Below, one piece after another: positions 39,129 through 59,331 of a DNA stretch of 64,000 nucleotides. The position numbers were made by a program, and so were the translations under genes. This DNA is from Rhizobiaceae bacterium (GTDB taxonomy: Bacteria > Pseudomonadota > Alphaproteobacteria > Rhizobiales > Rhizobiaceae). Location: the NCBI GenBank assembly GCA_027483885.1, contig JAIXTO010000154.1, positions 1-64,000 of the forward strand. The letters are read 5' to 3'. The first letter of the stretch is position 1. Each line of letters opens with the position of its first letter. The notes beneath the pieces are model-generated. The model was not told the origin of the DNA. It ran no database searches and worked only from the letters and a program-made list of their open reading frames with translations.

Positions 39129-41222
39129 TCAGCGTCTGAGGTCTTCGAGGAACTCGGAACCGGGAGAAACACCCGAGACGAATAGATGGTCGCGGGCACG
39201 TGTGGCGGCGACATAGAGCAGTTGTCGCTCAGTCGCGACCACTTCATCGAGTTCGAATTCGTCTGCAACGTCAGCAATGCGAGCATCCAATGGCAGAACA
39301 CCCTCATCACAGGCGATGAGAATGACAGCACGAAACTCCAGGCCTTTGGCGAGATGCATGGTACCAATCAGGACCGATTCGCTTGAGGAGGCAGCATGGA
39401 GAGCCGAGACCGTGGCAACACCCGCGGCCTCTGCTACCTTGGCTGCGCGCGCCATCTCTTCGTTGGAACGACAGAAGATGCCAATTTCCGAGGGAGCGAC
39501 ACCTGCGTCGATGAGACCTTTCAGGAAGACCGCGGCAGAAATGATTTCCTCTTCCTGCGTCGGTGCAATGACAACAACGGGCTCCACTCCGTCGAAGACC
39601 GAAACAGTGCCCTTGCGCTGATCTTCCTCGCCATCAACGTCGCGAACATTCTCCGGCAGCAGACTGTCGGCCATTCGGCGTATCTGATGTGACGTTCGAT
39701 AGTTGACCTTCAACGTGAAGGAACGCCCCCGCACGTCGATCCCGAGCCCTTTCCAGGAAAAGGGTTGCTGGAAGATGCGTTGGCCAATGTCACCTGCGAA
39801 GAACATCGCATCGGCACGATCCGGCACGATTGCCTTCAGAAATCGCAGTTCTGCAACGCCCAGGTCCTGTGCTTCATCCACCACCACGTGGCTGTACGGC
39901 TTGTCGTCGCGATTATCGAAGTGCAGCATCACTGCGGTGAAGAGATCGGCGCTCGTCATCAAAGCTTTGGCACGAACCTGACGGCGAACTTCGGCAAAGA
40001 TGGACCAGAGCTCCTCGCGCTGCTTGGCACCCAGCCGGTTCTTGCGTCCCATCCGCGGAACCAGAGCGTAGGCCTCCGCACTGTCGATCTGCCAGGCGTC
40101 GATCACGTGTTCCCATTCCGACAGCAGGAAACGGATCGGGTAACGCCCGGTGCCGGCAGTCGCGGCTGTGTCACTCAGGATGCCCCGCAGTATATCACGA
40201 TTGACCAGATAGGCCTTCCGTCCTGTCATCAATGCATACAGTTCTCCCGCAGCCTGTTCGAACGAGGAGACAACGACGCGTTCCGACAGCCGCGGGTCGT
40301 CCGCCACAAGGACGTGGAGCTTTCGCTTGAGGGCCATAGCCAACGGTTCAGAGAACGTGGTGAGCAAAACGCGAGCGGCGGGGTCGGCGCGCAGTATCCG
40401 GACAACCCGATGCAGTGCCACGATGGTCTTGCCGGTGCCCGCCGATCCGACCACACGGACAGGGCCGGCAAAATCACGCTCGACCAAGGCCCGCTGCGAG
40501 GGATGCAGGAATACCGCCCATTTCTCGAAGGGTTGGTCGAGTGCCGCCGCAAGTTCCTCGTGCCCTTCCAAAATACGGAACCGGCGCTGTGCGTCCGGGT
40601 GGGTAACCGGCGTCGCATCAACCGCCTTGGGTCTGTTGAGAACCCCAGTCGCCGCGTACTCAAGAAGCGCTTCGGCAGCTTCCTGCGGCAGATGGTTCGC
40701 CAGCGTGAAAAAGCGATCTTCACTTGCCTGGAGTACGTCGTTCACCCAGTCGGAGGGTACGCCGATGGACAGGGCCTCGTCCGAGGACAACTTTGCGAAC
40801 AACGGTGCGCCTGCGGTCGGCAGCGGCGGCATGACCACGAAAGGAGGAGCGGGCTGTACCGGTGGCAGTGCGCGGAGGGTGATTTCCTCTACCCGCTCCC
40901 GAACCTCCACGATCTGCAAAGCCCCCGTGCGCGGGTGCACCTCGATGCGCCGCCGCTCCGCCCAGGCATAGGCATCGTCGTGATGATCCACATAGGCAAG
41001 CATCACGCTGTCGCCGGTCTTGTGGATGATGATCCGGAGATCGCGGTTGACCCGCACTGACCAGAAGTTGGGGTCCTTGGATGCTTCGATCCGATGCATC
41101 TTCAGACCGGGCCTGTCCGGATCGGTCTGAAGATCGAACGCCGTCAGCTTCGCCTGCTTCTGTTCGTCATTGGTGAGCTTGGCGAGGGAGGCAGTGAAGC
41201 TGTCGGCGAGGATGGTGGTCAT
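39129..41222 (-). CDS. RelE-fold/UvrD-type SF1 helicase fusion
   Basis: The first 95 residues look like a RelE/ParE toxin fold (FWSVRVNRDLRIIIHKTGDS; MLAYVDHHDDAYAWAERR). Residues about 235-697 form a UvrD-like helicase: Walker A GSAGTGKT (259-266), motif II VVVDEAQDLG, motif VI region RQLLYVAATRARDHLFVSG. No nuclease domain is seen. Such RelE-helicase fusions occur near defence genes; whether the RelE part cleaves mRNA is unknown. The start is 4 bases behind the small winged-helix gene. It is the last gene of the defence block. Confidence 0.85.
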   Translation of the reverse strand: MTTILADSFTASLAKLTNDEQKQAKLTAFDLQTDPDRPGLKMHRIEASKDPNFWSVRVNRDLRIIIHKTGDSVMLAYVDHHDDAYAWAERRRIEVHPRTGALQIVEVRERVEEITLRALPPVQPAPPFVVMPPLPTAGAPLFAKLSSDEALSIGVPSDWVNDVLQASEDRFFTLANHLPQEAAEALLEYAATGVLNRPKAVDATPVTHPDAQRRFRILEGHEELAAALDQPFEKWAVFLHPSQRALVERDFAGPVRVVGSAGTGKTIVALHRVVRILRADPAARVLLTTFSEPLAMALKRKLHVLVADDPRLSERVVVSSFEQAAGELYALMTGRKAYLVNRDILRGILSDTAATAGTGRYPIRFLLSEWEHVIDAWQIDSAEAYALVPRMGRKNRLGAKQREELWSIFAEVRRQVRAKALMTSADLFTAVMLHFDNRDDKPYSHVVVDEAQDLGVAELRFLKAIVPDRADAMFFAGDIGQRIFQQPFSWKGLGIDVRGRSFTLKVNYRTSHQIRRMADSLLPENVRDVDGEEDQRKGTVSVFDGVEPVVVIAPTQEEEIISAAVFLKGLIDAGVAPSEIGIFCRSNEEMARAAKVAEAAGVATVSALHAASSSESVLIGTMHLAKGLEFRAVILIACDEGVLPLDARIADVADEFELDEVVATERQLLYVAATRARDHLFVSGVSPGSEFLEDLRR

Positions 41223-41226
41223 AGCA

Positions 41227-41613
41227 TCAACTCAAATAATATCGCCCGAATTCGTCGCGACGCAGCCGGCCAAGGGACGCTGCACGGCTCAGCGTGGCCG
41301 GCACCGACGAGACTTTCATGCCTGGAACGAGCTTCTCGATTGCGTCCTTCACCTCCCCGGAGGTCAAGCCACCGCCAGCCTCGGTGATGGCACGAACGCA
41401 GAGTTCCTGAATCTGTCCCCGGCCGGCGCGCTGGGGTTCGTCGTCCAGTCCCAAAAAGACTTCGAGCTGCTCCTTGCGTTTTTCCAGAGCTTCAATTTCC
41501 GCTGTAATTCTTTCCAGCTCTTCCAGGGCCTCTTCCCGCATGGCCTCTTCTTCCCCAGCGAGCCGCTGCTTTTCTTCAGCAATTCTACGAAGCCGCTCTT
41601 CGAGTGAACTCAT
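41227..41613 (-). CDS. Small coiled-coil/winged-helix protein
   Basis: A 128-residue protein. Residues 3-50 form a strongly charged coiled coil (EERLRRIAEEKQRLAGEEEA). Residues about 68-128 look like a winged helix (LTSGEVKDAIEKLVPGMKVS; ATLSRAASLGRLRRDEFGRY). GGGGAAAG precedes ATG 41613. It lies between a DUF262 gene (21-base gap) and the RelE-helicase gene (4-base gap), so the three are probably one unit. It could be a regulator or an adaptor. Confidence 0.8.
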   Translation of the reverse strand: MSSLEERLRRIAEEKQRLAGEEEAMREEALEELERITAEIEALEKRKEQLEVFLGLDDEPQRAGRGQIQELCVRAITEAGGGLTSGEVKDAIEKLVPGMKVSSVPATLSRAASLGRLRRDEFGRYYLS

Positions 41614-41634
41614 CACACTTTCCCCAGTCGCTTG

Positions 41635-43419
41635 TTAGTAATTCGGTTGCTGCCTGTCGCCATGAACTGACGCCAGCTTATCGACGATCATTTTCTCACG
41701 TTCCGCCACGAATTTGGGCAACATCATGATTGACCAGAGATGCTCGTCCTGCGGTATCAGGTGTTTCTCCAAGAAGGACTTATCTCGGCTCCTGATCCAG
41801 TCTTCGAACGAAGCGTTGCTCTTGTCTAGATTTTCCGCACTGGCGAGAAGTTGCAGATTGCCGATGCGATTGGTGCACGCCATCAATTCCTCGATCTTGG
41901 ACATCGGAACGTTGTTCTTCATCAGATATTTGCGGTCGAGGCGACCTTGCGGAAAGATATGGTCCACGTGGAAGGTCATGCTTCCCCAGCCCTTGTTCTC
42001 GTAAAGAAGCGAGAGCAGCAGGAAGATTTGCCGATTGCCGTATTGAAGCTCCATCACCCCGGCAAGGGCCTCGCCGGTCAGGTTTGAGGGGCGCTTGATC
42101 TGTCGGGTCAGTGCAGCATTCAAAGCTTCCAACGGGAAATCTTTGGTGAGTTGCAGCGAAGAGGCGATCGCGTTCTTCGCCGCGCCGATAGTGCTGTCTG
42201 AGGTCCCACCAAAGACCCTGTTCAGCAAAGCCGCGATCAGCCACCGACGAATGCGCTCGGCGTTCGAGACGAAGGATGGTGTCGTCGCGCTCAGAAGGTC
42301 AAACTCGGTCTTGTGTAGATAGTAGGCGATCGGCAGAAGTGCGTTCAAACTGGTCAGTGTGTCGCGATCGATACCGAAGCTGTTGGCAAGCTGGAAGGTG
42401 CGTTTCAGCGACTGCTGTATCTTGCTCCAGTTGCCTCGCATAATCTCCAAATTGCGATTGGTGAAATTCTTCACCTGATAAACGTGGTCGAGGTCCGACA
42501 AAACCAGGCATGCCTTCATCACGAAGTCCTTGGTCACGTCGTTCTTTCGGTCCAGTCGACCGTTTAGTGTATCGACGAAATTGTAGATTTCTTCGCGTGC
42601 GGAAATGTCGGTCCACTTCGATGAGATCATGGAGAGCATCAGATCGGACTTACTGAGCTTTGTTCCTCCATCGTTGGCCCTGACGAAGATGCCAAGCACG
42701 CGGTCATAGTCCTGGTTGGTTTCAGTGTAGTAGCTGATGATCTTGTCGACCCAGATTACCTGATAGAGCCGCTGGAGATTGCGCCGGGCGGTTTCCACCA
42801 CAGACCAATTTCGCGTTGCAGGCAGACGTTCGAGGGTTTTATCGACAAAAGCCGCGAACTGCTCCGGTTCCGGATAGCTGAGAATGTCCCCTACCTTGAT
42901 CCAGAGGTTGGCTGCTCCTGATTGCGGAGGGGTTTCGAAGAGCTCGAAGCCATAGGAGTGCTCGATGTCGTCTTCGGTATCCTCGGATTTCGGGATCAGC
43001 GCAGGGTCGACCAGAAGATCGATATAGAGCTTCTTACGCTGCCAGGCGTCGGGATTGTCCCAGCGTTTGCCTTTGGCTTTCACTGTGAACGAGCCGCGTA
43101 GACCGATGAGCATGGAAGTCAGACGCTGCTGTCCATCAAGCACCAGCGTCAGTTTGCGTCCCGACGTATCGGCGATCTCGTTATGCACTTCGCCAAAGCG
43201 AAAATTCTCTGCAAATTTGTAGATTTGCCAATTCAGCTCGTTTTCCGGCGCGACGTCCCAAAGCAGAAAGGAACTAATCGGGTACCCTTTCATCAACGAG
43301 TCGAACAATGCGACCATTTGCTCCGGCCCCCAGACAAATGGCCTCTGGATCGCAGGTAGGAAATACTCACGATTGATTTTGTCTATCGTAATAGCAATCG
43401 TCGTAGCACTATATCCCAT
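41635..43419 (-). CDS. DUF262-HNH (GmrSD-type) protein, copy 1
   Basis: The 594-residue product has a ParB-like DUF262 N-terminus with QRPFVW (25-30) and DGQQR (95-99). Its C-terminal DUF1524/HNH nuclease has VDHIFPQ (485-491) followed by NRIGNLQLLASAENLDKSN. This architecture is that of type IV GmrSD enzymes, which use NTP to cut modified DNA, and of several phage-defence proteins. It shares only motifs with the copy at 48057-49970, so the two are not recent duplicates. It follows the methyltransferase gene after a 133-base gap. Confidence 0.88.
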   Translation of the reverse strand: MGYSATTIAITIDKINREYFLPAIQRPFVWGPEQMVALFDSLMKGYPISSFLLWDVAPENELNWQIYKFAENFRFGEVHNEIADTSGRKLTLVLDGQQRLTSMLIGLRGSFTVKAKGKRWDNPDAWQRKKLYIDLLVDPALIPKSEDTEDDIEHSYGFELFETPPQSGAANLWIKVGDILSYPEPEQFAAFVDKTLERLPATRNWSVVETARRNLQRLYQVIWVDKIISYYTETNQDYDRVLGIFVRANDGGTKLSKSDLMLSMISSKWTDISAREEIYNFVDTLNGRLDRKNDVTKDFVMKACLVLSDLDHVYQVKNFTNRNLEIMRGNWSKIQQSLKRTFQLANSFGIDRDTLTSLNALLPIAYYLHKTEFDLLSATTPSFVSNAERIRRWLIAALLNRVFGGTSDSTIGAAKNAIASSLQLTKDFPLEALNAALTRQIKRPSNLTGEALAGVMELQYGNRQIFLLLSLLYENKGWGSMTFHVDHIFPQGRLDRKYLMKNNVPMSKIEELMACTNRIGNLQLLASAENLDKSNASFEDWIRSRDKSFLEKHLIPQDEHLWSIMMLPKFVAEREKMIVDKLASVHGDRQQPNY

Positions 43420-43552
43420 CGTAGATGCAACCTATCTCATTTTTAAATTAGCCGGTCGTTACGCACACAAATCCCGCTGCCGCCACCTCCACCGTCGCCG
43501 ACACACCAGCCGCATGTGCAGTCAGGATAGTGATTATGCCCCGGCATACCCC

Positions 43553-46500
43553 TTACACCCCAAACACCTTCAACACCTCGTCCCCGAAGTGATTGATCAC
43601 CTTCACCGCGATCCGCCCCGTGCTCGGTCGCGCAAACGGCCGTGAGGTGTCTGAATAGAGCGTCTCCCAGGCATCCGGGTCGATCTCGGCCTTCAGCGCC
43701 GTCTTCAGCGATTTGTAGGGGTCGTTCGCGCCGAGGAAATAGGCGTGGCGGACGAAGAAGCTTTCTTCGTCGTAATCGGTGTCGATGAACCAGGCGGCGA
43801 TGCCCTTGACGTCGTCAGAACGGATTTCGCCGGTGGAGGGGTCGAAGACGTCGACGCCGTGGACCTTGACCTTGATCTCGCCGCCGGGCGCGTCGAGGAT
43901 TTCCACGTCCGGTTCGCCGAAGACGACGAAGAGGTTGCCCTTGCCGGTGTTCTTCAGGTCCTCGGCCATGTGCAGGTCGGGGTTCATGCGGGCTTTGAGG
44001 ATGGCAAGCGGGCCGAGGCGGTTGAGGTCGGTCGCCTGGGCGTCGAAATTGAAGGCGCAGGCGATCAGCACGTCGAAACGGGCGTCCGATGCCTCGCGGG
44101 CGGCAGCGGTGATCTGGCTTCGGGTCAGCGTGCCGAATTCCGGGCCGATCAGGATCGCCGCACGTTTTTCCACCGCGCCGCCATCGGCATACCGACCCTC
44201 GGCGGCAATGTAATTGCCGGGCCAGGGGGTGATGGCGCTGAAATGGATGGTGTCGCGCTTTTCGAGTTGATGAACGCCGGCGGTGCGCAGGTGCGAAAGC
44301 ACCATTTCGCCGAAATCCGCTTCCGGCATGTTGGATGGCGTCGAGGCGCGTGTGGTGATTGCGCCGGATGCCGCAAGCTCTGCGCCCAGCGTATCCTCGC
44401 GGGCGGCGATAACACGGTGCGGCGACAGGCTTTCGACGGTGAAGGGGCCGGCGACGCGCACCTTCGTCTTGTCCTCATAGGGTCGGTCATAAAGCAGCTC
44501 GACATCGGCCGCGCGGGCAATCGAGGCGTCGATTTCCTTCTGGCGCGCAATGCGGCCCTCCCACCAAGCGGTGTGTAACTTCACGGCCTCGGCATCCTCC
44601 CACGCGTCGAGCGGTTCCTGTGGCAGGGTGTCGAGGGTCAGGAAGCGGCCGAGCGACAGGTTGATGCCATCGAGCGCCTTCTGGCGGGCGGCGTGCGATT
44701 GGCCCGCATCGCGCGCCGTGGGCAGCGCCTCGGCGGCGGCTTTTGGCCAGGGCGCACCAGCCGGGCGGGGTATTTCCCACTCTTCCCATGTTGTCTTGCG
44801 TCGCTCGTTCAGGGCCTGCCGCAGCGGTTCCAGCATCGCCTGCCACTTCTCCCAGATCACGTCGATTTCGGCATTGTTGGCAATACTTTTCAGCGTGATA
44901 TGCGGTGCGCGGTCATATACAAAGCCTTGGCGGATATCACCTGTGACGGCGGCGTCAGCGAGGATTTTGCCCGAGACATCCTGCTCCTTAGCGCGGCCCT
45001 CTCGACTGTCGGCCAGCATATAATAGGGATAGCGTGCGCTCATCAGTCGAGTGCGAGCCAGCGCCAGCGCCACGCGTGACGTGTCGATGGTAATCCAGCG
45101 GCGGCCCCATTGCTCTGCGACAAAGGCTGTGGTGCCGGAGCCACAGGTCGGATCGAGGACGAGGTCGCCTGGATCAGTCGCCATTAGCATGCAACGTTGG
45201 ACAATACTTGTGCTGGTCTGGACAACGTAGACAATTCCGGCTGCGCCAGCGACGTCCGTCCAAATGTTCGATACGGGAAATGCGGCGAAGTCGTCGATGA
45301 AACGAACGTAAGCTATTGTATCCTTTCGCTTTTCAATGCGCGCTGCACGCGAGAGTGTAGCAAGCCCTTTAAGCGAAGTTTTCCAGTTCGAACTCTCGCC
45401 TGAATGATAACGTTTGCCCTGAAACATCCATGCAGCGGTTGTATTCGTTCGCACTCCACTCGAGATAAGACTTGTTAGCTGATAAGGACGAGCATCGGTC
45501 GCAATCTGCTTAACTCCTCCTTTTTCCTCCTTGGTCATCGTTCGAGATGAAGTGTCTTCGAACCTCAAACGGTCGTATCGAGCGCCACTGCCTTCACCGA
45601 CTCCAACCTCTTTCCTAAAGTAAAGCTGACGATACTTCGTCATCGGCCGTCTTTTTCCAAACCAAATCACATAGTCTGCGACATTGGGGATGAACGAGGT
45701 CTCCTGCCCCCCAGTCTTGCGAAGGCTTATTAGTGAAATGAAATTCTCCTCTCCAAACACCTCATCCATGACCGCCCGGACGCGATGAACATTCTCGTCG
45801 CCGATCTGAACGAAGATCGAGCCGCTTTCGGTCAACAATTCCCGTGCCACCGTCAAGCGGTCGCGCAGATAGGTGAGATAGGAGTGGATGCCGTCCTTCC
45901 AGGTGTCGCGAAAGGCCTTCACCTGTTCCGGCTCTCGCGAAACGTCTTCCTTCTTGCCGTCCTTCACATCCCGGCTCATGGTCGAGACCTGCCAGTTCGA
46001 ATTGAACTTGATGCCATAGGGCGGGTCGAAATAGATGCACTGCACCTTGCCGCGCATCTCCTCGCGCTCGGCAAGGCTTGCCATTACCTGCAGGCTGTCG
46101 CCGAGAATCATACGATTCTGCCAGTGTTTGGTATGCTGGTAGAATTCGGCACGCGCCTCCGGATCGGCAATGCCGTTGAAATCGGCAAACAGATCAGGCG
46201 CATCGGTGTTTTGCTGGCGGGTGCTGGTGGTGCGGCGCTTCAGGTCGTCGATGATTGCCTTGGGGTGCACCTTTTCCTGAATGTAGAGCGGCGGCGCGTT
46301 GACCACGAGATCGGACCAATCCTGCCGGTCCTTGCCGCGCCAGACAAGCTGGGCATCGCCGATCTCGATCTCGCCGGTTTCGGCAAGCTTGCGCATCTGC
46401 GCCGGCGTGATCTTGATCTTTGCACCGTTCCAGATGATCTGCGGATCGCGGTCCATGTCCCTGTCGCGCACCGCGCCGTCTGCCAGCGGACGATCCCGCG

Positions 46501-46645
46501 GCACCCGCATCTCGCGCGCGGCCTCGCCCAGCATTTCCTCCTGCTGCTCGTAAAGCGACGCCATCTCGGCCGTCGGATTGTTCAGCCGCACCGCCTTGTC
46601 ATGGGTGAGGGTGGACACGTCTTTTTCGCGCGGGGTCTTGGCCAT
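43553..46645 (-). CDS. Type III-like adenine DNA methyltransferase (Mod)
   Basis: A 1030-residue protein with the beta-class motif order: DPPY at 207-210 (CIYFDPPYGIKF), target-recognition region (about 290-480), then the SAM motif DPTCGSGTTAFVAEQW from 498. This predicts N6-adenine (or N4-cytosine) methylation. The roughly 470-residue C-terminal extension is larger than in typical Mod proteins. GC content drops from about 63-65% to about 50% across 45,190-45,780, the recognition region. It starts one base after the previous gene's stop and belongs with the Res-like protein at 49970. Confidence 0.9.
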   Translation of the reverse strand: MAKTPREKDVSTLTHDKAVRLNNPTAEMASLYEQQEEMLGEAAREMRVPRDRPLADGAVRDRDMDRDPQIIWNGAKIKITPAQMRKLAETGEIEIGDAQLVWRGKDRQDWSDLVVNAPPLYIQEKVHPKAIIDDLKRRTTSTRQQNTDAPDLFADFNGIADPEARAEFYQHTKHWQNRMILGDSLQVMASLAEREEMRGKVQCIYFDPPYGIKFNSNWQVSTMSRDVKDGKKEDVSREPEQVKAFRDTWKDGIHSYLTYLRDRLTVARELLTESGSIFVQIGDENVHRVRAVMDEVFGEENFISLISLRKTGGQETSFIPNVADYVIWFGKRRPMTKYRQLYFRKEVGVGEGSGARYDRLRFEDTSSRTMTKEEKGGVKQIATDARPYQLTSLISSGVRTNTTAAWMFQGKRYHSGESSNWKTSLKGLATLSRAARIEKRKDTIAYVRFIDDFAAFPVSNIWTDVAGAAGIVYVVQTSTSIVQRCMLMATDPGDLVLDPTCGSGTTAFVAEQWGRRWITIDTSRVALALARTRLMSARYPYYMLADSREGRAKEQDVSGKILADAAVTGDIRQGFVYDRAPHITLKSIANNAEIDVIWEKWQAMLEPLRQALNERRKTTWEEWEIPRPAGAPWPKAAAEALPTARDAGQSHAARQKALDGINLSLGRFLTLDTLPQEPLDAWEDAEAVKLHTAWWEGRIARQKEIDASIARAADVELLYDRPYEDKTKVRVAGPFTVESLSPHRVIAAREDTLGAELAASGAITTRASTPSNMPEADFGEMVLSHLRTAGVHQLEKRDTIHFSAITPWPGNYIAAEGRYADGGAVEKRAAILIGPEFGTLTRSQITAAAREASDARFDVLIACAFNFDAQATDLNRLGPLAILKARMNPDLHMAEDLKNTGKGNLFVVFGEPDVEILDAPGGEIKVKVHGVDVFDPSTGEIRSDDVKGIAAWFIDTDYDEESFFVRHAYFLGANDPYKSLKTALKAEIDPDAWETLYSDTSRPFARPSTGRIAVKVINHFGDEVLKVFGV

Positions 46646-46646
46646 G

Positions 46647-47252
46647 TCAGGATGCCTGCTGGTTTCTCATTGTGGTAAGGAGCGCCTCAAAGCGATCAAT
46701 GATGCTGTGGATGTAATCGAGTGCTTCGCGAAGGGGGCGTAATGCCTCATCGAAGTTCTCCTCTTCGGCTCCTTTTGCCAGGACATCCTTATCAACCCGG
46801 ACCGGCAGAAACAGGCTCGGCTCATCATCAAAAACGAAACGGGTATCGTTGAAGCCAATGGCACGGCTCTGGATGAACTTCTTCCACGGTGTCTTTGGGA
46901 ATTCATTTTGGAGAAACCGAAACCCCATCCCGCCTCGACCTTCCGCGCATAGCTTGGTCAGCCGGAAATAATCGTTGCCATCGCGCCATTGGCCGGTATC
47001 GCCGGAACGATATTCTAGACCGAACCAGGCATTCCATTTATCCCCTGTCACCCAGTGTTGTGGCGCGACTGCAGCATCGTCGTTATCTTGCCAATTCGCA
47101 GTGCTGTGCCAGCCCTTTGGCGTCGCCCAGTCTTCGATGAGCGCATCAATTTTTCCCGCGATGCGATTCTGAAGCAGTTCAAACCGCCGTGCGCCTTCAT
47201 CTAGGTCTGCGATATTAAGGATAAGAAGCTTATGTAGTTCATTGGAAAACAT
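46647..47252 (-). CDS. Small protein between nuclease and methyltransferase (DUF4268-like?)
   Basis: A 201-residue protein beginning MFSNELHKLLILNIADLDEG. The middle (WNAWFGLEYRSGDTGQWRDG) is aromatic and beta-like, and the C-terminus is a helix (YIHSIIDRFEALLTTMRNQQ). I do not recognise it with confidence. The ATG at 47252 has GAGG just upstream and lies 7 bases after the nuclease stop; a longer frame upstream lies inside that gene. It may be a partner or inhibitor of the adjacent nuclease. Confidence 0.75.
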   Translation of the reverse strand: MFSNELHKLLILNIADLDEGARRFELLQNRIAGKIDALIEDWATPKGWHSTANWQDNDDAAVAPQHWVTGDKWNAWFGLEYRSGDTGQWRDGNDYFRLTKLCAEGRGGMGFRFLQNEFPKTPWKKFIQSRAIGFNDTRFVFDDEPSLFLPVRVDKDVLAKGAEEENFDEALRPLREALDYIHSIIDRFEALLTTMRNQQAS

Positions 47253-47259
47253 GGGGACC

Positions 47260-48060
47260 TCAGTGCAATCTTTTAACGTGTGCTGCGAACTGCCGGACGA
47301 CCGCTCCTGACACCGTCGCTTCCTGCGACACCGGAACTGCCTTCCATATGGCATCGGCAACGTCAGTCCAGAGCAGATGGATGACCTCAGCAGGTGCATC
47401 ATCGGGAAGATTTCTGCTGAGGTATAGCAGGCAAACGACTGGCTTCTTCTGGATGCTGGCTCGTGTATGCGCGAGCTTCAGATAGTTTTGCAGCTGATTG
47501 TCACCTTGCCGGGCGTTGATCTTTACCTCGATAAAAATGACGGCGTTCTGCGCATCAATCACAAGGTCCACTCGGTTGTTCGTGTCGCCGAAAGATGAAT
47601 GCTCGACGGCAAGTTGATAGTGGCGACCTAACTGCACGTGGTGCAAACCCTTTGCCGGGTGTTTCCGGGCCAGAATGTCCAATAAGGCTTCGAGAATCTT
47701 GGAGCCAAAGCCGTGGCTTCCGCGACCATCGAGCAGCCAGCCCAGCACGGCTGCGGTCGGGACTTCCTTTTGTTTGAGGCCCGCAATGGTCCAAACGTTC
47801 AAGAGCGTGCCATCGTGTCGCGATGCCGTCAGACCGCTTCGGAGATCGGCAAGAAACGATGAAAAGCGGACCGTGTCGAGTGTACGCTCAGGCACACGGT
47901 GCGCCGGAATACTTTCCCGCCTGAAGTCGGCAATAGCATCAAACAATGCGCTGAGACGCATCGCTCGCGCTTGCGCCATCTTCTCCTGTGGATGCAACGC
48001 GATTTGCAGCTGATCCAGAAAGCGGGCGATCCGATCAAGGCTTTGCTGCTGCACCGTCAT
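47260..48060 (-). CDS. PD-(D/E)XK nuclease-family protein
   Basis: A 266-residue protein with a nuclease core at about 155-215: NNRVDLVIDAQNAVIFIEVK gives the Asp and the E-x-K pair, followed by INARQGDNQLQNYLKLAHTR. The N-terminus (about 1-90) is helical. It starts as ATGA over the stop of the DUF262 gene, so the two are translationally coupled. It is embedded in the restriction module and could add DNA cutting. Confidence 0.85.
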   Translation of the reverse strand: MTVQQQSLDRIARFLDQLQIALHPQEKMAQARAMRLSALFDAIADFRRESIPAHRVPERTLDTVRFSSFLADLRSGLTASRHDGTLLNVWTIAGLKQKEVPTAAVLGWLLDGRGSHGFGSKILEALLDILARKHPAKGLHHVQLGRHYQLAVEHSSFGDTNNRVDLVIDAQNAVIFIEVKINARQGDNQLQNYLKLAHTRASIQKKPVVCLLYLSRNLPDDAPAEVIHLLWTDVADAIWKAVPVSQEATVSGAVVRQFAAHVKRLH

Positions 48061-49970
48061 TGTGCTGCCACCGTGAACTCGGCCTCTTCCTCGTCCTCAT
48101 CCAACTCGTCGGAATAGTCGCCGGTGCTCGCAATGGCTACAGGCGACTGCTTGCCCATCGCATGCTCAATCAGGCTCAAGAGAGCTTTCTGGCGCGCATC
48201 CATGAAGGCGACAAAATCGTCAGCACGAAGAAGGGCCGGCTCGATCAGATGCGACGTCAGACACCCGTCGAGCTTGGCAGGATCGATGGCAGAGGCGTCG
48301 GCGCTGCCCGTTTCCAATTTTGAAAGGTAGGCCGAGGGTGCCACACCACCGATGATGCGGTTCGTTCGGTAGGACAGAGGCGTCTTGTTGATGATGGAAT
48401 CATAGATGTCCGATTTGATCCCTCGGTCCTCGCACCATTTCTTCGGGAAGATGTGGTGGATATCGACACTCTCGCCGAAGAAGACTGTGTGGTCGAATTC
48501 CTGGCCGGAGCGAAAGTCTTTGGCTTTCTCCTTCATCAGCAGGGCATTCACACCCTTGTAGGCAGCTGAAAGACGCATGCGCATCGTTTTCAGGCGTTCA
48601 GGCCGGAATGAGGCTTCGGACACTGTCGCGGGCACTTTGCCGCCGGCCAGCCAGACAGGCACTTCCAGAAAATCACGCGAGATGCGGCTCTCGACCGCCG
48701 AACCATAAAGCTCGCCCAAGACGCCGCACCAGTACCACTTTGTCAGCTTGTCACGGTTCGCCTCGAGTTCCCATGCGTCGCCGATGTCAGCAAGGATGGC
48801 AGCGAGGGGGATGATCTGCGTCTGGTAGGGCAGATCGAACAACCGGTAGACCCGTTGGGTGAAGAGAAACTTTGCAGCCTTCAGGAATCCCTGCTCTGCC
48901 AAATCCTGGTACTGATTGTAGGCCGTCAGAGGCAGATTGAGGAGCGCCTCTCGCTTTCCAGTGACTTGAGGAAGGTCTTTGCCTTCCTTGCCCAAGGCTT
49001 CAGCTGCCCGCCTGAGGTCACGGGTGTAGAACAGCGAGACGACATGGAGGAAATCGGTATTGGCGACGTGGGCCAGTATGCCCTTTTCGGCGTCGGCCAG
49101 CTTCTGTGCATTAACAAAGCGGCCATGCCGTCCCTTGTTGTCGCGCCCGTCGCCATACCAGTCTTTGCGCAGCTCGTGGCCATCAGCGGCATATATGGCG
49201 GTGACAAGTTCGAAGGCGTCTAGCGGCTTGCCTCCGGTGTTGACCTTCTCGAAGACCGTGCAGACGGCTTCCTTCGTGGTGGTCTTGTCGAGCGCGATGA
49301 CGGGCACCTGGTAACCGGTGAAGTTGGCGAGGACCTCGTTGTAGAACTGCTGAACGACAGGCCAGAGTTCCTGCATACGCCCGTTGGCATTCGCCCAGGT
49401 GACGAATTCCATCTGCCAGGCCATCCCATCGAAGACGCGGGATAGAGGGAATACCAGATTTTCGAACTCTTTTTCAGTCGTGGAAAAGTCGCTATCGATC
49501 TGACGATTGAAGTCTGACCGTATAATCTTGTCCGCCGGCACCGAGAGGATTGCATCCTCTCGATCCGAAGAGGCATCCAGCGATTTCCTGATGTCGATGA
49601 AAAACCAGCGCTCGACCGGCTGCTTCTTTGGTGTGATGGTTTTCACCACCTGACCGCGAAGAGTGACCTGGTAAAGCGATGTCATGCGTTGCTGGCCATC
49701 CAGCAGCAGCTCTGCGGGCGAGACTTTGTTTGCGGTTTCCGGAGCACCCTCGATCGTCCGCGGCTTGAAGTTGACGCCGCCCCCAGTCTCCAACGTCATG
49801 AGCGCACCGACCGGGAAGGCGCGGGAAATGGACGCGATCAAGCTCTTGATACGATCTTCGTCCCAGACCCAGCTTCTCTGAAAATCAGGCAACTGCAATT
49901 TGCCGTCGTTGCAGCTCTTGAGGAGGTCGTGGAGCGAAACAGGATTGGTTCGGAATGTTGAGCCCGCCAT
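48057..49970 (-). CDS. DUF262-HNH (GmrSD-type) protein, copy 2
   Basis: The 637-residue product has QRSWVW (31-36) and DGQQR (91-95) in the DUF262 domain, and a C-terminal HNH site VDIHHIFPKKW (about residue 500) followed by RTNRIIGG. It belongs to the DUF262/DUF1524 family. Its start overlaps the Res-like gene stop (TAATG) and its end overlaps the PD-(D/E)XK gene, so it is part of the restriction module rather than a separate locus. An acidic tail (DELDEDEEEAEF) ends the protein. Confidence 0.9.
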   Translation of the reverse strand: MAGSTFRTNPVSLHDLLKSCNDGKLQLPDFQRSWVWDEDRIKSLIASISRAFPVGALMTLETGGGVNFKPRTIEGAPETANKVSPAELLLDGQQRMTSLYQVTLRGQVVKTITPKKQPVERWFFIDIRKSLDASSDREDAILSVPADKIIRSDFNRQIDSDFSTTEKEFENLVFPLSRVFDGMAWQMEFVTWANANGRMQELWPVVQQFYNEVLANFTGYQVPVIALDKTTTKEAVCTVFEKVNTGGKPLDAFELVTAIYAADGHELRKDWYGDGRDNKGRHGRFVNAQKLADAEKGILAHVANTDFLHVVSLFYTRDLRRAAEALGKEGKDLPQVTGKREALLNLPLTAYNQYQDLAEQGFLKAAKFLFTQRVYRLFDLPYQTQIIPLAAILADIGDAWELEANRDKLTKWYWCGVLGELYGSAVESRISRDFLEVPVWLAGGKVPATVSEASFRPERLKTMRMRLSAAYKGVNALLMKEKAKDFRSGQEFDHTVFFGESVDIHHIFPKKWCEDRGIKSDIYDSIINKTPLSYRTNRIIGGVAPSAYLSKLETGSADASAIDPAKLDGCLTSHLIEPALLRADDFVAFMDARQKALLSLIEHAMGKQSPVAIASTGDYSDELDEDEEEAEFTVAAQ

Positions 49971-52900
49971 TACGCCACTTCCATTGCCAGCGTCAGAAAT
50001 GACGCAATCAGTTTCTCGTATTCTTCTTCCATCGCGAAAGCGTCACGAAGTTCCTTGAACGCCCAGCGGCCGTAGGTCTTCAGGTTGTTGACCCCTGGCA
50101 CCCACATGGTTTCCATGGTCTGCGCCTTGATCTGCGCGTCCAGCCCGCGAAAGCCCTTGACCTCGACGATCAGGTTCAGCGGATCATCCGGCCCGTGGCC
50201 GTCATCCAACTGAATGATGAAGTCCGGCAAGTAGCGGCGCGGCACGCTACCGATGCGGTACGGCACTTCGAAGCCCAGCGCCTGGTTCTTGACGTAGGAG
50301 ATGGTTGAGGAATGTGCTTCCACCACGCGGGCAAACTCGGCCTCCCAATCGCTGTCGCAGACCACGTAGTTCACCTGGGACAGCGACGTGCGCCAGAGGT
50401 TCTGCTTGGTGGTGATGAAGGAGACAAAATCTGTGTAGCCATGCGGGTTATACGGATCGAGCATGGCCTTCACGACGCCGGTGCCGTCTTCGCCGGCGCT
50501 GCGCACGATCGCCTGGTAAATTTGCTCGCAGGCTTTTTCCGCCAGCTCTGCATAGGTCAGCATGCCGGCCTTGGTGCCGCCGGTCAGCTTCAGGCACTGG
50601 TTGACCCAGCGTCGGGTAATCGGTTGAAGCTGGTTATAGAGGTAGTAAGGAACGTCCTGATCGGTCTCACGGAAGTAAAGCTCGATCAGCTTTTTGGTCA
50701 GATGAATGGCGACGGTGTTCGGCCGCATGTCGTTTAGGGCGTCCGGCGAAATCTCGTGGCCCTCTCCGACCAGACCTTCCAGCCTGACCCGGCACGGACC
50801 GACCAGTTCGGGCGTCAACGTCAGAGTGGAATCCTCGCTGAATATGGCGGAGAAGTTGTCGGACGGCAGTTCTGTGCGGTAACCGGCGACGCGCGGGAAG
50901 CGGATGGAAAGATTGGCGCGCTCCTTTAGCGCATGGACGCGCGTGGTCGGCTTCGGTGGCGTGCGGACAACCTCCTGCGGCTCCGTCGCAAAATCGAAGG
51001 GGATGCCGAGGATGTCGGCATATTCGGTATTGAACAGACCCCTGTCGTTCAGCTCGTAGGATTGCCGCCGCAGGCCGCGGCCAATCACCTGCTCACAGAG
51101 AAGCTGCGTGCCGAAGGCCCGGACGCCGAGAATGTGGGTGACCGTGTTGGCATCCCAACCTTCCGTCAGCATCGACACAGAGACAACGCAGCGGATTTGC
51201 TCGCCGAGCCGTCCCTTTTGGCCGACGGTGTTCATCACTTCGCGCAGCAGTTCGGACTCCGAAATATTGGCAGCCTCTGCCGCACCATCGCGCTCGGCTT
51301 TCTCACGCTTGAACTGCTCGATCTCGATCTTGGCCATCTCGCGGAAAGCCGGGTCGAGTGCTTCGCCAGATTCCAGCTGTTGGCTGTCGATCAGCAGCGT
51401 GTTCATTCGCGGCAGCCGATTACCGTACTGGTCGAAATTGCTGAACAGCTTCAGATGGCCATGATGCTTGGTGACAAGCTCGTCCTGCTCGGTGCGTTCC
51501 CAGCCCGATACCCATTCATAGACGAGCTTCGAGCTGGCAGTGTTGTTGCACACGACGATGAAGACCGGCGGCACGCCAATGCCTACCTGCTGCCAAGCCT
51601 CATATTCCTTCTGGTAATGGGAATAGAGCGAGTAAAGTGCTGTCTGCAATGGTGCCGGCATCTTGAAGGGGTCAAGCTCGCCGGACTTTCCTGCCCCCTT
51701 CTTCGGCATATCCTTGCCGATGTGATCCCACAGGTTGCGGTAGACCGGCATGGCAGAGTTGACCGAGTTATCGGAGACCGGAACGCGTGGCAGCTTCACG
51801 ATGCCGCATTCAATGGCATCGACCAGGGAGAAGTCGGATACGACCCATGGAAACAGCGTGCCTTCCTCGTAGCCGGAGCCGCGCAGGAAGAATGGCGTTG
51901 CCGAGAGATCGTAGACCGAGCGCAGGCCGACCTTGCGCTTCAAGGCTTCGATGCCGGAAATCCAGAGGCGCGCTGCCTCATTGTTTTCCTTCGCCTCCTC
52001 CTTCTCCTGGCCTTTTAACTCGTCTTCTTCGTTTGTGTTTGGCCTTTCACGATAGCAATGGTGAGCCTCGTCGTTAATGACGACGATATTCTTGAGCTGA
52101 AGCAGATCGCCACAGGCGCGCTGGAGCATCGCCCCTTCGGTTTCCAGCTCTTCGATCTCTTCATTCTTCCAACCCTTCATTAGGCGAAGGCCGACAGCAT
52201 TCAGCTCGTGCGCCTTGCGGCGCTGGAAGACATGATAGTTGACGATTTCAATCTTCGACTTGTTCAGGTCCTGCATCATGTCCTGCGGCACAAGCTCGCG
52301 GGTACGGTAATAGCTGTTGGCGTCTGATGGCTTCAGGACGCGCAGGCGGTCCTTGATCGTGATACCGGGTGCGACGATGAGAAAGCCACGGGAGAACAGG
52401 CTTGAATTTGGCTGGCGCGCCGAATTGATGGATTGCCAGGCGATTAGCATGGCCATGACTGTAGTCTTGCCAGCACCCGTGGCAAGTTTCAGCGCGGTGC
52501 GAAACAGGTCGGGGTTGGCATCCTGATTTGCCTCTTCCAGATGGCGGAAAATATGCGCGTACTGCTTTCGGTTGCGCGCGACCTCCGCAAGCCAGATCGC
52601 TGTCTCTACTGCCTCGACCTGACAATAGAACGGCCGTGCCCCCGAAAATGCGTCGCTGCGCCAGTACTGAAGCAACCGCTGAGTTGTCGGCGTAACACCC
52701 CAGTCGTTAGGGTTGGGCAGGCTGCGCCATGCTGCGATATGCGTGCGGATTTCATTAATGATGGGCGTCGGATTGTAGCGGCTACCACCTTCGCCAGCCT
52801 GGTCGAGGTCGAGAGATGCCTGCTTCTTACCGTCAGCCTTGGTCCTGCGGCTTTTCGGTACCGGCGCGATGTATTTTGAGCGTCGCCGTCCCTCAATGGG

Positions 52901-53002
52901 AGGGTGATCGAGAGGTTCACCATTTTCCGACAAGGCGTGGTGGCGCGTCGGAACCTCATAGGGCGAATTGAGGATCGGCTCAGCGTAGAAAGGTTTCGTC
53001 AT
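49970..53002 (-). CDS. Res-like DEAD/DEAH helicase-nuclease (BPTD_3080-type)
   Basis: A 1010-residue SF2 translocase: Walker A ATGAGKT (174-180), DEAH at 311-314 (VVINDEAHHCYRER), motif VI QVIGRGLRRQSYE. A C-terminal PD-(D/E)XK nuclease has PDFIIQL and LIVEVKGFRG. It resembles type III Res subunits and, from memory, the 'BPTD_3080 family restriction endonuclease' group. It pairs with the Mod-like methyltransferase but is separated from it by three genes. A 176-base gap precedes it, the likely promoter site for the module. Confidence 0.9.
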   Translation of the reverse strand: MTKPFYAEPILNSPYEVPTRHHALSENGEPLDHPPIEGRRRSKYIAPVPKSRRTKADGKKQASLDLDQAGEGGSRYNPTPIINEIRTHIAAWRSLPNPNDWGVTPTTQRLLQYWRSDAFSGARPFYCQVEAVETAIWLAEVARNRKQYAHIFRHLEEANQDANPDLFRTALKLATGAGKTTVMAMLIAWQSINSARQPNSSLFSRGFLIVAPGITIKDRLRVLKPSDANSYYRTRELVPQDMMQDLNKSKIEIVNYHVFQRRKAHELNAVGLRLMKGWKNEEIEELETEGAMLQRACGDLLQLKNIVVINDEAHHCYRERPNTNEEDELKGQEKEEAKENNEAARLWISGIEALKRKVGLRSVYDLSATPFFLRGSGYEEGTLFPWVVSDFSLVDAIECGIVKLPRVPVSDNSVNSAMPVYRNLWDHIGKDMPKKGAGKSGELDPFKMPAPLQTALYSLYSHYQKEYEAWQQVGIGVPPVFIVVCNNTASSKLVYEWVSGWERTEQDELVTKHHGHLKLFSNFDQYGNRLPRMNTLLIDSQQLESGEALDPAFREMAKIEIEQFKREKAERDGAAEAANISESELLREVMNTVGQKGRLGEQIRCVVSVSMLTEGWDANTVTHILGVRAFGTQLLCEQVIGRGLRRQSYELNDRGLFNTEYADILGIPFDFATEPQEVVRTPPKPTTRVHALKERANLSIRFPRVAGYRTELPSDNFSAIFSEDSTLTLTPELVGPCRVRLEGLVGEGHEISPDALNDMRPNTVAIHLTKKLIELYFRETDQDVPYYLYNQLQPITRRWVNQCLKLTGGTKAGMLTYAELAEKACEQIYQAIVRSAGEDGTGVVKAMLDPYNPHGYTDFVSFITTKQNLWRTSLSQVNYVVCDSDWEAEFARVVEAHSSTISYVKNQALGFEVPYRIGSVPRRYLPDFIIQLDDGHGPDDPLNLIVEVKGFRGLDAQIKAQTMETMWVPGVNNLKTYGRWAFKELRDAFAMEEEYEKLIASFLTLAMEVA

Positions 53003-53178: not shown

Positions 53179-55632
53179 TCAGCTTGCTGTGTCATCTCCG
53201 TCTGCGTCCAGGCTTTCGATGTTGATGAGAATATGGCTGTCTCCACCGGAGCCGGACAGCATTTCCATCAGATTGTCGATGATGCCTAGTTTGGCACGTA
53301 TCTGTCTGCTTCCAGTGGCACGACGCTCTAGGAACGGTTTTAAGCTCGCTAACTGCTTATGAATCGCGTCTGCCTCTCGAGAGGTCCCGAGAAGAAGCGC
53401 ATACGGATGTTGCTGACGGCACCGCAGGATACCGCCGACGATCTGAAGCGCGTAGTTCAGAACAGTCCCGAATTTTTGGCTCTCTCGCAGTTCGATGAGA
53501 AGCGCGACAACAAATTTCGTTGTTTTTACAACGCGCTCTTCCGTCAGCACGGCAGGTGTTGCAATCGGACGGCTGAGGAGCGCCGCGACAGCTGCAGGTA
53601 CATTGCCTTTCGAAGGATGATGACGGAGGAGAAGGTCAATCGCTCGCTCGAGCCGCCTTTCCTCCTTAATAATCCGACCCAGACCATGAAGGATTACGGT
53701 CGAAGCTGACCTGTTTTCAAGGAACACATGCTCTCTTGCATCTAGGTGCGCATGCGCTGCTTTCAGTATCTCGTCCTGCAGACCAAGCGGGCAGCGCCCA
53801 AAAGCCCAAGTGGCGGCCAGAAGGAGACTGTTATCTGGCAACGGGCGGCGGCTGGAGACTGCTGATAGGCAGGTAGACGTGACGAGAGCCAACGCACGAT
53901 CCAGCGCTTCGATCAACTCGGCATCAATCTCCTCGGGCGGCTCGCCATCGAAGTCGAGTAGACGAGCCGGTGTAAATCCGGCTCCATTACCGCCGACATC
54001 GATGGGGACCTGTCTCGATAGAAACTCACGTAGTTTTGCCGAGTCCCTTAACTCAAATTTTGAAATGAATGGCCCGAAGGCAGGAATACGATCAGTGCCG
54101 AGCCAGCGGTCAACATGGGCAAAACCGGTTACCCGCTCCGGAACAATAGGCTTCGGCTTGAGCTCCGCTGCAATCTCTTCGAAGGATCGTGGATCATGCT
54201 CCAGCGTCGACCAATCGAGAAAGACAGGACGGGATCGCAGTACGTCCCAATCGTTCGAGGTGACGAAAACCGCCGCTCGCCCCTGCGCCGGCATTTGCCG
54301 TAAGCGGACCTCGACGGCCTGGGTGCGAGTGGGTGGAAACACATCTGCCGTGGTCCATTTCCGGAATTCCGTACCCTTTCGAAGGTAGAAGGTGACATTG
54401 CGGGCACCCGAAGGCCAGCCAAGACCCGTGATCGGTGCGGAAACATATTCCCGGTTTGCGGCAACCACGGCATTGGCCGGCACGAGGTCGATCAGCACGA
54501 CCTCTCCACCTTCGAGGGCGACGAGCGAAACCTGCTCCAGACGGTCGAGATAATGAGGTATGCCGCGCTCGATGCGGCGACCGGCAAGCAAGGCACCTGT
54601 TGCAGCAGCCTCCCGCGGCATCAGGAGGACCGGGGTACCTCCCGCTGCCGTTGCCACCGCCTTGCGTATGGGCTCTCGCAGTCCGGCTCCGACAGGAGTG
54701 GTCAGCAGAACGATAGCAGCATCTGCAAGTTCGATGGGCGGAAGCCCTAATTGGACATCGTCAATATCAGATTGTGGCGGCGCTAATGACACCCACAATC
54801 CGTTGTCAAGACGGATGATTTCCTCTTCCGCCGGTGGCGCATCCGCCAGCAGACGTTCCCATGCCATGCGGCTCGGTCCCTGCCTATCGAATTCAGCCAA
54901 AGGGTTGGCCGCATGTACGGCGGCTTCTGCCTGTGTGAAAAGGGCTTGTAGGCCGAAGTCATCGGGATCGGTTCGAACAACATTGCCCGTCTCTGCCCGT
55001 TCCGGCGCGAAAAGACCGGGATGATCTTCCAAGGCACGTAACGTCAAAACTTGGAGCGCATAACCATTGTCTGAATGGTCAATGCAGGCGATCCGCATGC
55101 CATCATGGGGGGGCGGAATGAGGTTCTGTTCAAGAGCGGCTAGCAATGTGGCGACGGGATGCCAGAGGAGGCGAATTGATACGCCGCGTCTGCGCAGGGC
55201 ATTCAACAGGAACTCCTGCCGTGTCTCGTCCAGTTCTGCCCGATCAGGAACAATCGTTACGATCTCGTCGGCTTGCATCGTAAGCGCCAAAGCGGTCGCC
55301 TGCCATTGCGCGGCGCACTCCTTGCTGTCGTGTGAAGCGAGCAGGGCCTCCAGCAGGGAACGGACGGAGATGCGGCGCTTCGGCGCTCCGATCTTACCCC
55401 AGCCATTTCCACGGCCGATGGGGGAATGCGCGGCCTGCGGGCCGCCAATGAAGTTTAGGGCAACATCTTGTGCATCGGGATCGTGGAGGGCAACGACAAC
55501 GGTGCCGGTGCCGCCATCGATGACAATGTGCGCCGGACGGCAGATTGCGGCCTCGTCATCCGAATCCTGTTTCGCATCATGCACGGTAAAATCGTGCCAG
55601 CCATTGATATCCAGTCCGACAATCCGCCGCAT
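53179..55632 (-). CDS. Degenerate Hsp70/actin-fold protein
   Basis: An 817-residue protein with three strings that follow the Hsp70 nucleotide-domain order. They are EIVTIVPDRAELDETRQEFL...WHPVATLLAAL (123-167), like the Hsp70 'VPAxFxDxQR...NEPTAAALA' region; RIACIDHSDNGYALQVL (180-196), where DLGGGTFD is expected; and GTPVLLMPREAAATGALLAG (332-351), like the second phosphate and adenosine region. The glycine-rich phosphate loops are eroded, so ATP hydrolysis is doubtful. The C-terminal 400 residues match nothing I know. The start overlaps the upstream stop (TGATG). Confidence 0.75.
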   Translation of the reverse strand: MRRIVGLDINGWHDFTVHDAKQDSDDEAAICRPAHIVIDGGTGTVVVALHDPDAQDVALNFIGGPQAAHSPIGRGNGWGKIGAPKRRISVRSLLEALLASHDSKECAAQWQATALALTMQADEIVTIVPDRAELDETRQEFLLNALRRRGVSIRLLWHPVATLLAALEQNLIPPPHDGMRIACIDHSDNGYALQVLTLRALEDHPGLFAPERAETGNVVRTDPDDFGLQALFTQAEAAVHAANPLAEFDRQGPSRMAWERLLADAPPAEEEIIRLDNGLWVSLAPPQSDIDDVQLGLPPIELADAAIVLLTTPVGAGLREPIRKAVATAAGGTPVLLMPREAAATGALLAGRRIERGIPHYLDRLEQVSLVALEGGEVVLIDLVPANAVVAANREYVSAPITGLGWPSGARNVTFYLRKGTEFRKWTTADVFPPTRTQAVEVRLRQMPAQGRAAVFVTSNDWDVLRSRPVFLDWSTLEHDPRSFEEIAAELKPKPIVPERVTGFAHVDRWLGTDRIPAFGPFISKFELRDSAKLREFLSRQVPIDVGGNGAGFTPARLLDFDGEPPEEIDAELIEALDRALALVTSTCLSAVSSRRPLPDNSLLLAATWAFGRCPLGLQDEILKAAHAHLDAREHVFLENRSASTVILHGLGRIIKEERRLERAIDLLLRHHPSKGNVPAAVAALLSRPIATPAVLTEERVVKTTKFVVALLIELRESQKFGTVLNYALQIVGGILRCRQQHPYALLLGTSREADAIHKQLASLKPFLERRATGSRQIRAKLGIIDNLMEMLSGSGGDSHILINIESLDADGDDTAS

Positions 55633-57218: not shown

Positions 57219-57222
57219 ACGC

Positions 57223-59328: not shown

Positions 59329-59331
59329 CAA

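Follow-up and report, generated by a model that had tools for sequence, protein, structure and literature searches.

A stretch of 64,000 nucleotides from a Rhizobiaceae bacterium (contig JAIXTO010000154.1; the whole stretch is called the window) carries a type III-like restriction locus with further genes inserted between those of the restriction system. The initial annotation described five genes, encoding a Res-like helicase-nuclease, a DUF262-HNH protein, a PD-(D/E)XK nuclease, a protein of 201 amino acids (aa) and a Mod-like methyltransferase, and all five are present on the minus strand between 43553 and 53002. They were also said to be all coupled by overlaps, which holds for two of the four junctions (1 and 4 bases, calculated from the coordinates), the two others being gaps of 7 and 1 bases. 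The row of restriction genes, entirely on the minus strand, extends beyond these five to 39129 and includes three genes that the initial annotation lacked, those of a second DUF262 protein, a 129-aa protein and a UvrD-type helicase (Table 1). Res, Mod and UvrD are referred to below as the frame, and the genes held in the two intervals, or slots, between them as cargo. The motifs of Res, Mod, the DUF262-HNH protein and the PD-(D/E)XK protein are all intact and largely conserved.

Table 1. Features of the restriction locus in the order in which the genes are read (aa, amino acids; ORF, open reading frame)
Feature	Position	Strand	Description
Res	49970-53002	-	BPTD_3080-family restriction helicase-nuclease, 1010 aa; Pfam ResIII
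Slot 1	46646-49969	-	Cargo, Res to Mod; contents vary among loci
DUF262 (GmrSD_N) protein with HNH-like C-terminus	48057-49970	-	Slot 1; 637 aa; Pfam 2.9e-29
PD-(D/E)XK nuclease	47260-48060	-	Slot 1; 266 aa; PDDEXK_4 5.3e-18; weak PADLOC match to PDC-S26, 61 bits
201-aa partner of the PD-(D/E)XK protein	46647-47252	-	Slot 1; no family match
Mod	43553-46645	-	Beta-class amino-methyltransferase, 1030 aa; DPPY and DPTCGSGTT
Mod hypervariable block 1	45236-45718	-	Between motifs IV and I (about aa 310-470); position of target recognition
Mod hypervariable block 2	44576-44818	-	About aa 610-690; outside the usual recognition region
Slot 2	41223-43552	-	Cargo, Mod to UvrD; contents vary among loci
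Second DUF262 protein (GmrSD_N and GmrSD_C)	41635-43419	-	Slot 2; PADLOC HEC-05
129-aa protein	41227-41616	-	Slot 2; ORF only, no family
UvrD-type helicase	39129-41222	-	Third frame gene, 697 aa; Pfam UvrD

Res belongs to the BPTD_3080 family, as it matches NCBIfam NF046055 at 1271 bits (cut-off 800) over positions 2-969 of 970. It has the organization of a type III Res, with the motifs of a superfamily 2 (SF2) motor (Walker A GAGKTT, DEAHH, GRGLRR) and of a C-terminal PD-(D/E)XK nuclease (PDFII...EVKG). Across the 65 rows of a Res alignment, DEAHH is found in 65 and PDF in at least 62, and for the last motif the six most frequent forms, each of them E-x-K, account for 44. Mod matches Pfam N6_N4_Mtase (9.2e-29), PADLOC MTase_III (1212 bits) and EcoP15I Mod in the PDB (6.7e-13). 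Its motifs stand in the type III order, DPPYGIKF from about residue 207, a hypervariable block and DPTCGSGTT from about residue 498, and DPPY and DPTCGS are present in all the commonest Mod forms listed (50 and 45 of 55 rows). The locus shares with the classical type III systems EcoP15I and EcoPI the neighbouring position of the two genes, a Mod of the beta class in which DPPY is present and a recognition region lies between the motifs, and a Res with an SF2 motor and C-terminal PD-(D/E)XK. It differs from them by the extra genes and UvrD in the row, by a 1030-aa Mod with a long C-terminal region, and by a Res whose sequence matches no PDB chain at E≤1. With PADLOC REase_III, Res scores only about 29 bits. 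The model of the Mod C-terminal region (predicted template modelling score of 0.39) gave no Foldseek match at E≤0.001; the best rows for restriction enzymes, MspJI (0.006) and BamHI (0.05), were found among unrelated ones.

The variability of Mod was measured as the mean identity to six close relatives in windows of 40 aa. Identity was 95-100% at residues 161-280, 76-85% at 481-600 and, from residue 721 up to the C-terminus, 90-99%. It was 18-41% across residues 321-480, in block 1, and in block 2 went from 48% at 601-640 to 7% at 641-680 and back to 73% at 681-720. Beta-class and type III Mods hold their recognition domain at the position of block 1; we know of no role for the second variable block. 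Because they are so dissimilar in block 1, the seven compared Mods may all have different targets. A highly variable recognition domain of this kind has been named for ModA (PMC3311624). At one locus (L043, 12803-15918), Mod is split in two parts, 86% and 78% identical to the window Mod, by a 347-aa ORF that belongs to the HNH-containing cluster 1, a cassette-type gene within Mod itself.

The linkage of the frame genes was surveyed in 81 Res loci: 17 were found with peptides of the window Res and are biased toward close kin, 6 are plasmid regions hand-chosen from 55 records, and 58 came from draws of 385 class, 397 order and 398 phylum genomes; this number excludes several matches to very short contigs, another copy present in genome G065 and a contig of G457. 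Res is followed by Mod on one strand in 66 loci, and the initial annotation was right in seeing a type III-like pair with extra genes in between. Mod precedes Res in 10 loci, in 2 of which UvrD lies on the other strand; for the remaining 5 loci, the sequence examined contains no match to Mod. UvrD is the following frame gene, in the same orientation, in 54 of the 64 testable Res-Mod loci, the number being 64 because two of the 12 UvrD-less loci end less than 160 bases past the Mod match. In a Methylibium plasmid (L050, 6035-9860), no Mod match follows Res and the ORFs present there resemble, by eye, a Tn3-type transposase.

Linkage was also examined in unselected genomes. In the class draw, UvrD (E≤1e-60) was present in 12 of the 22 genomes with a Res over the cut-off and in 6 of the 363 without (Fisher p 5.5e-13). 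Five of these six were examined: G190 has Mod and UvrD with no Res in 19.9 kb, in G288 UvrD is preceded by the final 21 residues of Mod, and Res fragments lie on a different contig, UvrD lies at a contig end in G070 and G336, and the match in G183 is to a distant UvrD (30%). The initial annotation had named the assortment of Res and Mod with different partners as what would refute the pairing, and the two rarely assort apart. With thresholds of E≤1e-200 for Res and E≤1e-100 for Mod, the order draw (397 genomes) contained 21 genomes with both, 4 with Res only and 3 with Mod only (Fisher p 5.8e-28). The four Res-only genomes comprise two with a more distant Mod in the region (L135, L139), one contig of 5.6 kb and one Res fragment without Mod; of the three Mod-only genomes, one has a Res that is broken and adjoins Mod, another a Res that falls short of the threshold, and in the third, G488, Mod, four other ORFs and UvrD are found with no Res.

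To describe the slots, same-strand ORFs of at least 90 aa were taken with a greedy ORF finder from 65 loci and the window, L043, L110, L111 and one L133 ORF overlapping Mod being left out. Slot 1 is shorter than 150 bp in 11 of the 65 loci (median 971 bp, maximum 4206 bp) and slot 2 in 9 of the 53 loci with UvrD downstream (maximum 5614 bp); three slots 1 (L103, L104, L144) and one slot 2 measure at least 300 bp and hold no such ORF. The 153 ORFs, 5 of them from the window, fall into 74 clusters, of which 48 have a single member; 33 clusters occur in slot 1 and 42 in slot 2, one of these being found in both. A neighbourhood survey for the five-gene order of the window, which the initial annotation had proposed, returned it at 1 of the 65 other loci (L047, a metagenome-assembled genome labelled Arenimonas), so the set of inserted genes is not fixed. 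The window-type DUF262 protein is found in slot 1 of 14 other loci, and the PD-(D/E)XK and 201-aa proteins in 4 others, never apart. Because the contents of the slots vary across loci, the three inserted genes are one of many cargoes rather than fixed parts. The frequent cassettes keep to one slot, DUF262 being in slot 1 in 15 of 17 cases and cluster 4 in slot 2 in 6 of 6.

Family scans were made with 137 slot proteins of at least 125 aa (including 5 outside the final set), the 25 commonest families being listed. The leading Pfam matches among these were GmrSD_N (16), REase-ARP (6), PDDEXK_13 (6), HNH_2 (6), PDDEXK_4 (4), AAA_16 (3), NYN (3), FRG (2) and PIN (2), and PADLOC matches included HEC-05, PDC-M55C, PDC-S26, PDC-S11, PDC-S31 and HmaA (3 proteins). 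Judged by these matches, many of the slot clusters are predicted nucleases or known defence candidates; many of those sampled are without a family name.

Cargo changes between close relatives. Of the 14 pairs of loci whose Res proteins share 90% identity or more, 1 carries the same set in slot 1; among the 11 such pairs in which both slots 2 are available, the slot-2 set is identical in 1 and a cluster is shared in 3. On a Res tree of 65 rows, from which L043 and L147 were omitted (short Res ORFs), the distribution of the slot-1 DUF262 protein (15 rows) requires at least 9 changes and that of the PD-(D/E)XK pair (5 rows) requires 5. At the closest locus, from R. lemnae (Res 93% identical), the DNA resembles that of the window until about 37 bp short of the res stop codon and does so again from the mod start codon onward. 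Such breakpoints at gene edges are as expected if recombination in the flanks had replaced the interval, a route that we infer.

The cargo is also found outside the frame. Relatives of the DUF262 protein are present in 17 plasmid records, one of which is an embedded copy (Shinella, L048), and five other plasmid neighbourhoods of DUF262 gave no match to Res, Mod or UvrD at E≤1e-3. Pairs of the PD-(D/E)XK protein and its partner without the frame were found in plasmid records of Azotobacter, Novosphingobium, Sphingomonas paucimobilis and Proteus mirabilis, with no match to Res, Mod or UvrD in the 6.6-18.6 kb examined around these four. By this distribution, the presumptive cassettes are units of their own.

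In the cargo of this strain, the slot-1 DUF262 protein is of the GmrSD/BrxU type, with DGQQR, DxHHxFP and two Asn residues that do not vary among 15 sequences; its HNH part rests on the motif, because Pfam GmrSD_C is unmatched. The residues R163, D165, E178, K180 and Q189 of the PD-(D/E)XK protein are invariant in 7 sequences. The 201-aa protein adjoins this nuclease in 5 of the 5 loci of its cluster, the window included; the longest ORF at its position is 251 aa and the four other members measure 196-205 aa. An AlphaFold2 model built from five sequences is fairly confident (predicted local distance difference test of 83), and Foldseek searches of the PDB and BFVD with it gave no match at E≤0.001. 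VIA-align placed it nearest to the secretion-chaperone folds of ExsC, CesT, SycN-YscB and Spa15 (Z of 6.2-5.3), followed by DR_1245 (4.8) and Rv3902c (4.5), values that, being below 8, may reflect just a common arrangement. Our guess is that this protein may be a chaperone or an inhibitor of the neighbouring nuclease. That it would be the detached C-terminal half of fused PDDEXK_4 proteins was unsupported, as its profile reached a HMMER E of 0.045 and a hhalign probability of 0.3 per cent with the fused 436-aa protein, known from a single example (L191). The second DUF262 protein matches PADLOC HEC-05 over its full length (643.8 bits, residues 1-586, model positions 20-593 of 600).

We favour, with a probability of roughly 0.6, the reading that the locus is a type III-like restriction frame of Res, Mod and UvrD that carries exchangeable, separately evolved defence cassettes. 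The genes and their motifs, the linkage of the frame, the turnover of the cargo, its occurrence outside the frame and the variable Mod blocks can be read from the DNA; the activities, co-transcription, recombination route and division of labour in the following scheme are what we infer. Mod would mark the DNA of the host, with the variable recognition block determining the site, and Res would cut unmarked DNA by means of its ATP motor, UvrD, where present, probably helping to process, displace or commit the DNA. The cassettes, located after res and after mod, would be swapped as entire genes, the probable route being homologous recombination within the flanking, conserved core genes, and would be co-expressed with the frame and add independent defences. 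Among them, the GmrSD-like ones may act on phages that escape Res through their modified cytosines, for which GmrSD and BrxU provide precedents (PMC12707154).

Several observations weigh against this reading. UvrD is missing in 10 of the 64 testable loci, including L031 with a Res 93% identical to that of the window, and a divergent group in which Mod precedes Res (8 loci, Res 31-33% identical) is without UvrD in the sequence examined; for these two reasons UvrD is to be regarded as frequent and not as obligatory. In 11 of the 14 close pairs, at least one slot-1 cluster is shared (DUF262 in 6, REase-ARP in 4, another in 1), so that some cassettes persist. The change counts on the Res tree stand without a shuffle control, and the counts of nucleases in the slots are raw numbers without a control set of other gene gaps. 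Three of the five DUF262 plasmid regions hold other methylase or restriction-type genes within 9 kb, and because of these genes, to be outside this frame is not to be alone. A tree of embedded and outside DUF262 proteins (19 rows) has 3 changes, as few as in 104-114 of 500 shuffles, and decides nothing. Co-transcription is not indicated by promoter- and terminator-like sites, of which 4 and 17 were found against 4.7 and 14.5 expected from shuffles, levels that allow no conclusion.

Three other explanations were weighed against the same data. The initial annotation had placed at least three predicted nuclease domains under one methyl mark, which implies that Res, the DUF262-HNH protein, the PD-(D/E)XK protein, its partner and Mod act in one complex whose nucleases obey the Mod mark. 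The genes are contiguous on one strand with short overlaps or gaps, the nuclease motifs are intact, and L047 has the identical five-gene order; however, that order is confined to this 1 of 65 loci, slot 1 is empty in 11 of 65, and relatives of the extra genes are found on plasmids without a Res and Mod of the window type. An obligate machine of five genes was rejected on the basis of the locus survey and the plasmid copies, and we consider any such integrated complex very improbable. It is also quite improbable that the slots are no more than harmless landing places in a defence island, with neighbourhood as the sole link between frame and cargo. A short integrase-family ORF, a transposase ORF and a further defence-like gene set do adjoin the locus, cargo turnover is fast, and the slots 1 of L103, L104 and L144 have room without a same-strand ORF of 90 aa. 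Yet the inserts recur at the same two positions and the frequent cassettes keep one slot. The agreement in strand between cargo and frame is unusable as an argument here, because ORFs on the opposite strand were excluded before clustering.

An arrangement like that of PrrC in EcoprrI, in which the cassettes would be restrained by the frame or sense it, and would fire, possibly killing the cell, when an anti-restriction protein of a phage disables the frame, seems to us rather unlikely, while deserving more credit than the two preceding explanations. Embedding in a restriction operon is the layout of PrrC (PMC12707154), DarTG2 has been described inside a type I system (PMC12255303), and the 201-aa partner weakly resembles small secretion-chaperone folds. 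This resemblance, at a Z of about 6, may nevertheless be a mere common arrangement, and relatives of the cassettes occur without the frame, because of which the cassettes need not be guarded by it.

Embedded defence genes are established for Hma and type I operons (PMC12988326, PMC12255303, PMC12707154). As cited in PMC12988326 and PMC12255303, Payne et al. 2024 introduced Hma-embedded candidates (HEC) and 'guilt-by-embedding', and the present locus resembles these cases by its defence genes embedded in a helicase and methylase operon and by the HEC-05 match of its second DUF262 protein. It differs from Hma in that the methylase there is of the 5-methylcytosine (m5C) type (PMC8565338) and Mod is of the N6/N4 type by Pfam. 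Assignment to Hma itself (HmaA helicase, HmaB m5C methylase, HmaC ATPase) was rejected, since Res matches only two REase_III models in PADLOC; no Hma model was among the best 25 of 41 rows for Mod and the best 25 of 35 rows for UvrD. Parts of the Hma type can, on the other hand, be cargo, because three slot proteins of other loci match HmaA. The type I operons (PrrC in EcoprrI; DarTG2 between hsdS and hsdR) also have separate defence genes inside a restriction operon, the frame there being of type I with one insertion position in the examples described and two positions being used here. In bacteriophage exclusion (BREX) systems, GmrSD-type HNH and other nucleases are found within the core loci as extra effectors (PMC12839542); the auxiliary nucleases are a shared trait, and the frame there bears PglZ. 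No BREX core model was among the matches listed when the window proteins were scanned with PADLOC.

The three-gene type III systems that form N4-methylcytosine (m4C) (Murray et al. 2021, PMC8259958) have a third gene with SF2 helicase motifs located 5' of mod. A type III Mod, a Res and a conserved third helicase-like gene are thus common to both. The label does not apply to the present locus, where the 201-aa protein gene lies 5' of mod, the helicase is of the UvrD type (superfamily 1) and is encoded 3' of mod, and cargo slots are present. Gabija, composed of the OLD-type nuclease GajA and the UvrD-type GajB, was likewise rejected: UvrD resembles GajB models at 102 bits in PADLOC, and no GajA was among the matches listed for the nine other window proteins (for Mod, the best 25 of 41). 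A type III-like frame with a downstream UvrD and two exchange slots was not found described in the open literature, the Payne 2024 preprint and subscription papers lying outside the search, and 'BPTD_3080' is unmentioned in the literature searched. Res-Mod-UvrD might go further and constitute an undescribed three-component class, an immune chassis in which specificity (the two Mod blocks) and effectors (the two slots) undergo recombination independently of each other and the cargo has a functional link to the frame, being either licensed by it or released upon its block by a phage; we regard this stronger proposal as speculative and unlikely. If the favoured reading of a frame with exchangeable cassettes is right, the slots of one widespread operon would provide a catalogue of candidate defence genes in 74 clusters. 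Similar frames with different cargo and recognition blocks would then be a natural experiment on whether cassettes act alone, additively or as guards of their host operon, a question that concerns embedded defence genes in general.

Other cargoes show recurrent associations. In slot 1 of L034 and L045, a cluster-2 nuclease (a cluster matching REase-ARP/PDDEXK_13 in L036) is accompanied by a small cluster-8 protein (in L045, Bflower_3), and both clusters are also present in L033. The products of clusters 9 and 10, of about 140 and 230 aa and of no known family, form a two-gene cassette in L032, L044, L132 and L150; neither gene occurs without the other, and the cassette is found exclusively in slot 2. 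In L031, whose Res is the closest relative of that of the window, slot 1 contains a FRG-domain protein (PADLOC PDC-S15, 244 bits) and a small neighbour weakly like a pPIWI-associating nuclease, below the cut-off. Slot 2 of L101 and L119 encodes proteins of about 955 aa (cluster 22), likely two of the three slot proteins that match HmaA. In UvrD, residues 34-81 weakly resemble a HigB/RelE toxin (PF05015, E 1.4e-4, below its cut-off), which points to a possible toxin-like domain at the N-terminus of the helicase.

The locus lies among other genes of defence or mobility. Just past UvrD, on the minus strand (37318-38790), there are ORFs of a tyrosine recombinase (192 aa) and of an IS3-like (rve) transposase, and a Fic protein is encoded at 32190-33338; these predicted recombinase, transposase and Fic genes are marks of a mobile island. 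No tRNA gene was detected in the window by ARAGORN. Directly upstream, on the same strand (53179-63907, minus), lies a second set of defence-like genes. Its products are a protein of 817 aa that matches nothing in Pfam or the PDB, a DUF2357 protein (below the cut-off), an AAA_5 protein with a coiled coil (PDC-M26A in PADLOC at 127 bits), another protein that is coiled-coil-like, and a helicase resembling UPF1 that carries an MTES_1575/DUF559 nuclease. Four of these five are matched at locus L052 of R. leguminosarum, with a hypothetical gene in the fifth place; the matched set is there on the opposite strand from Res, with a Shedu gene in between.

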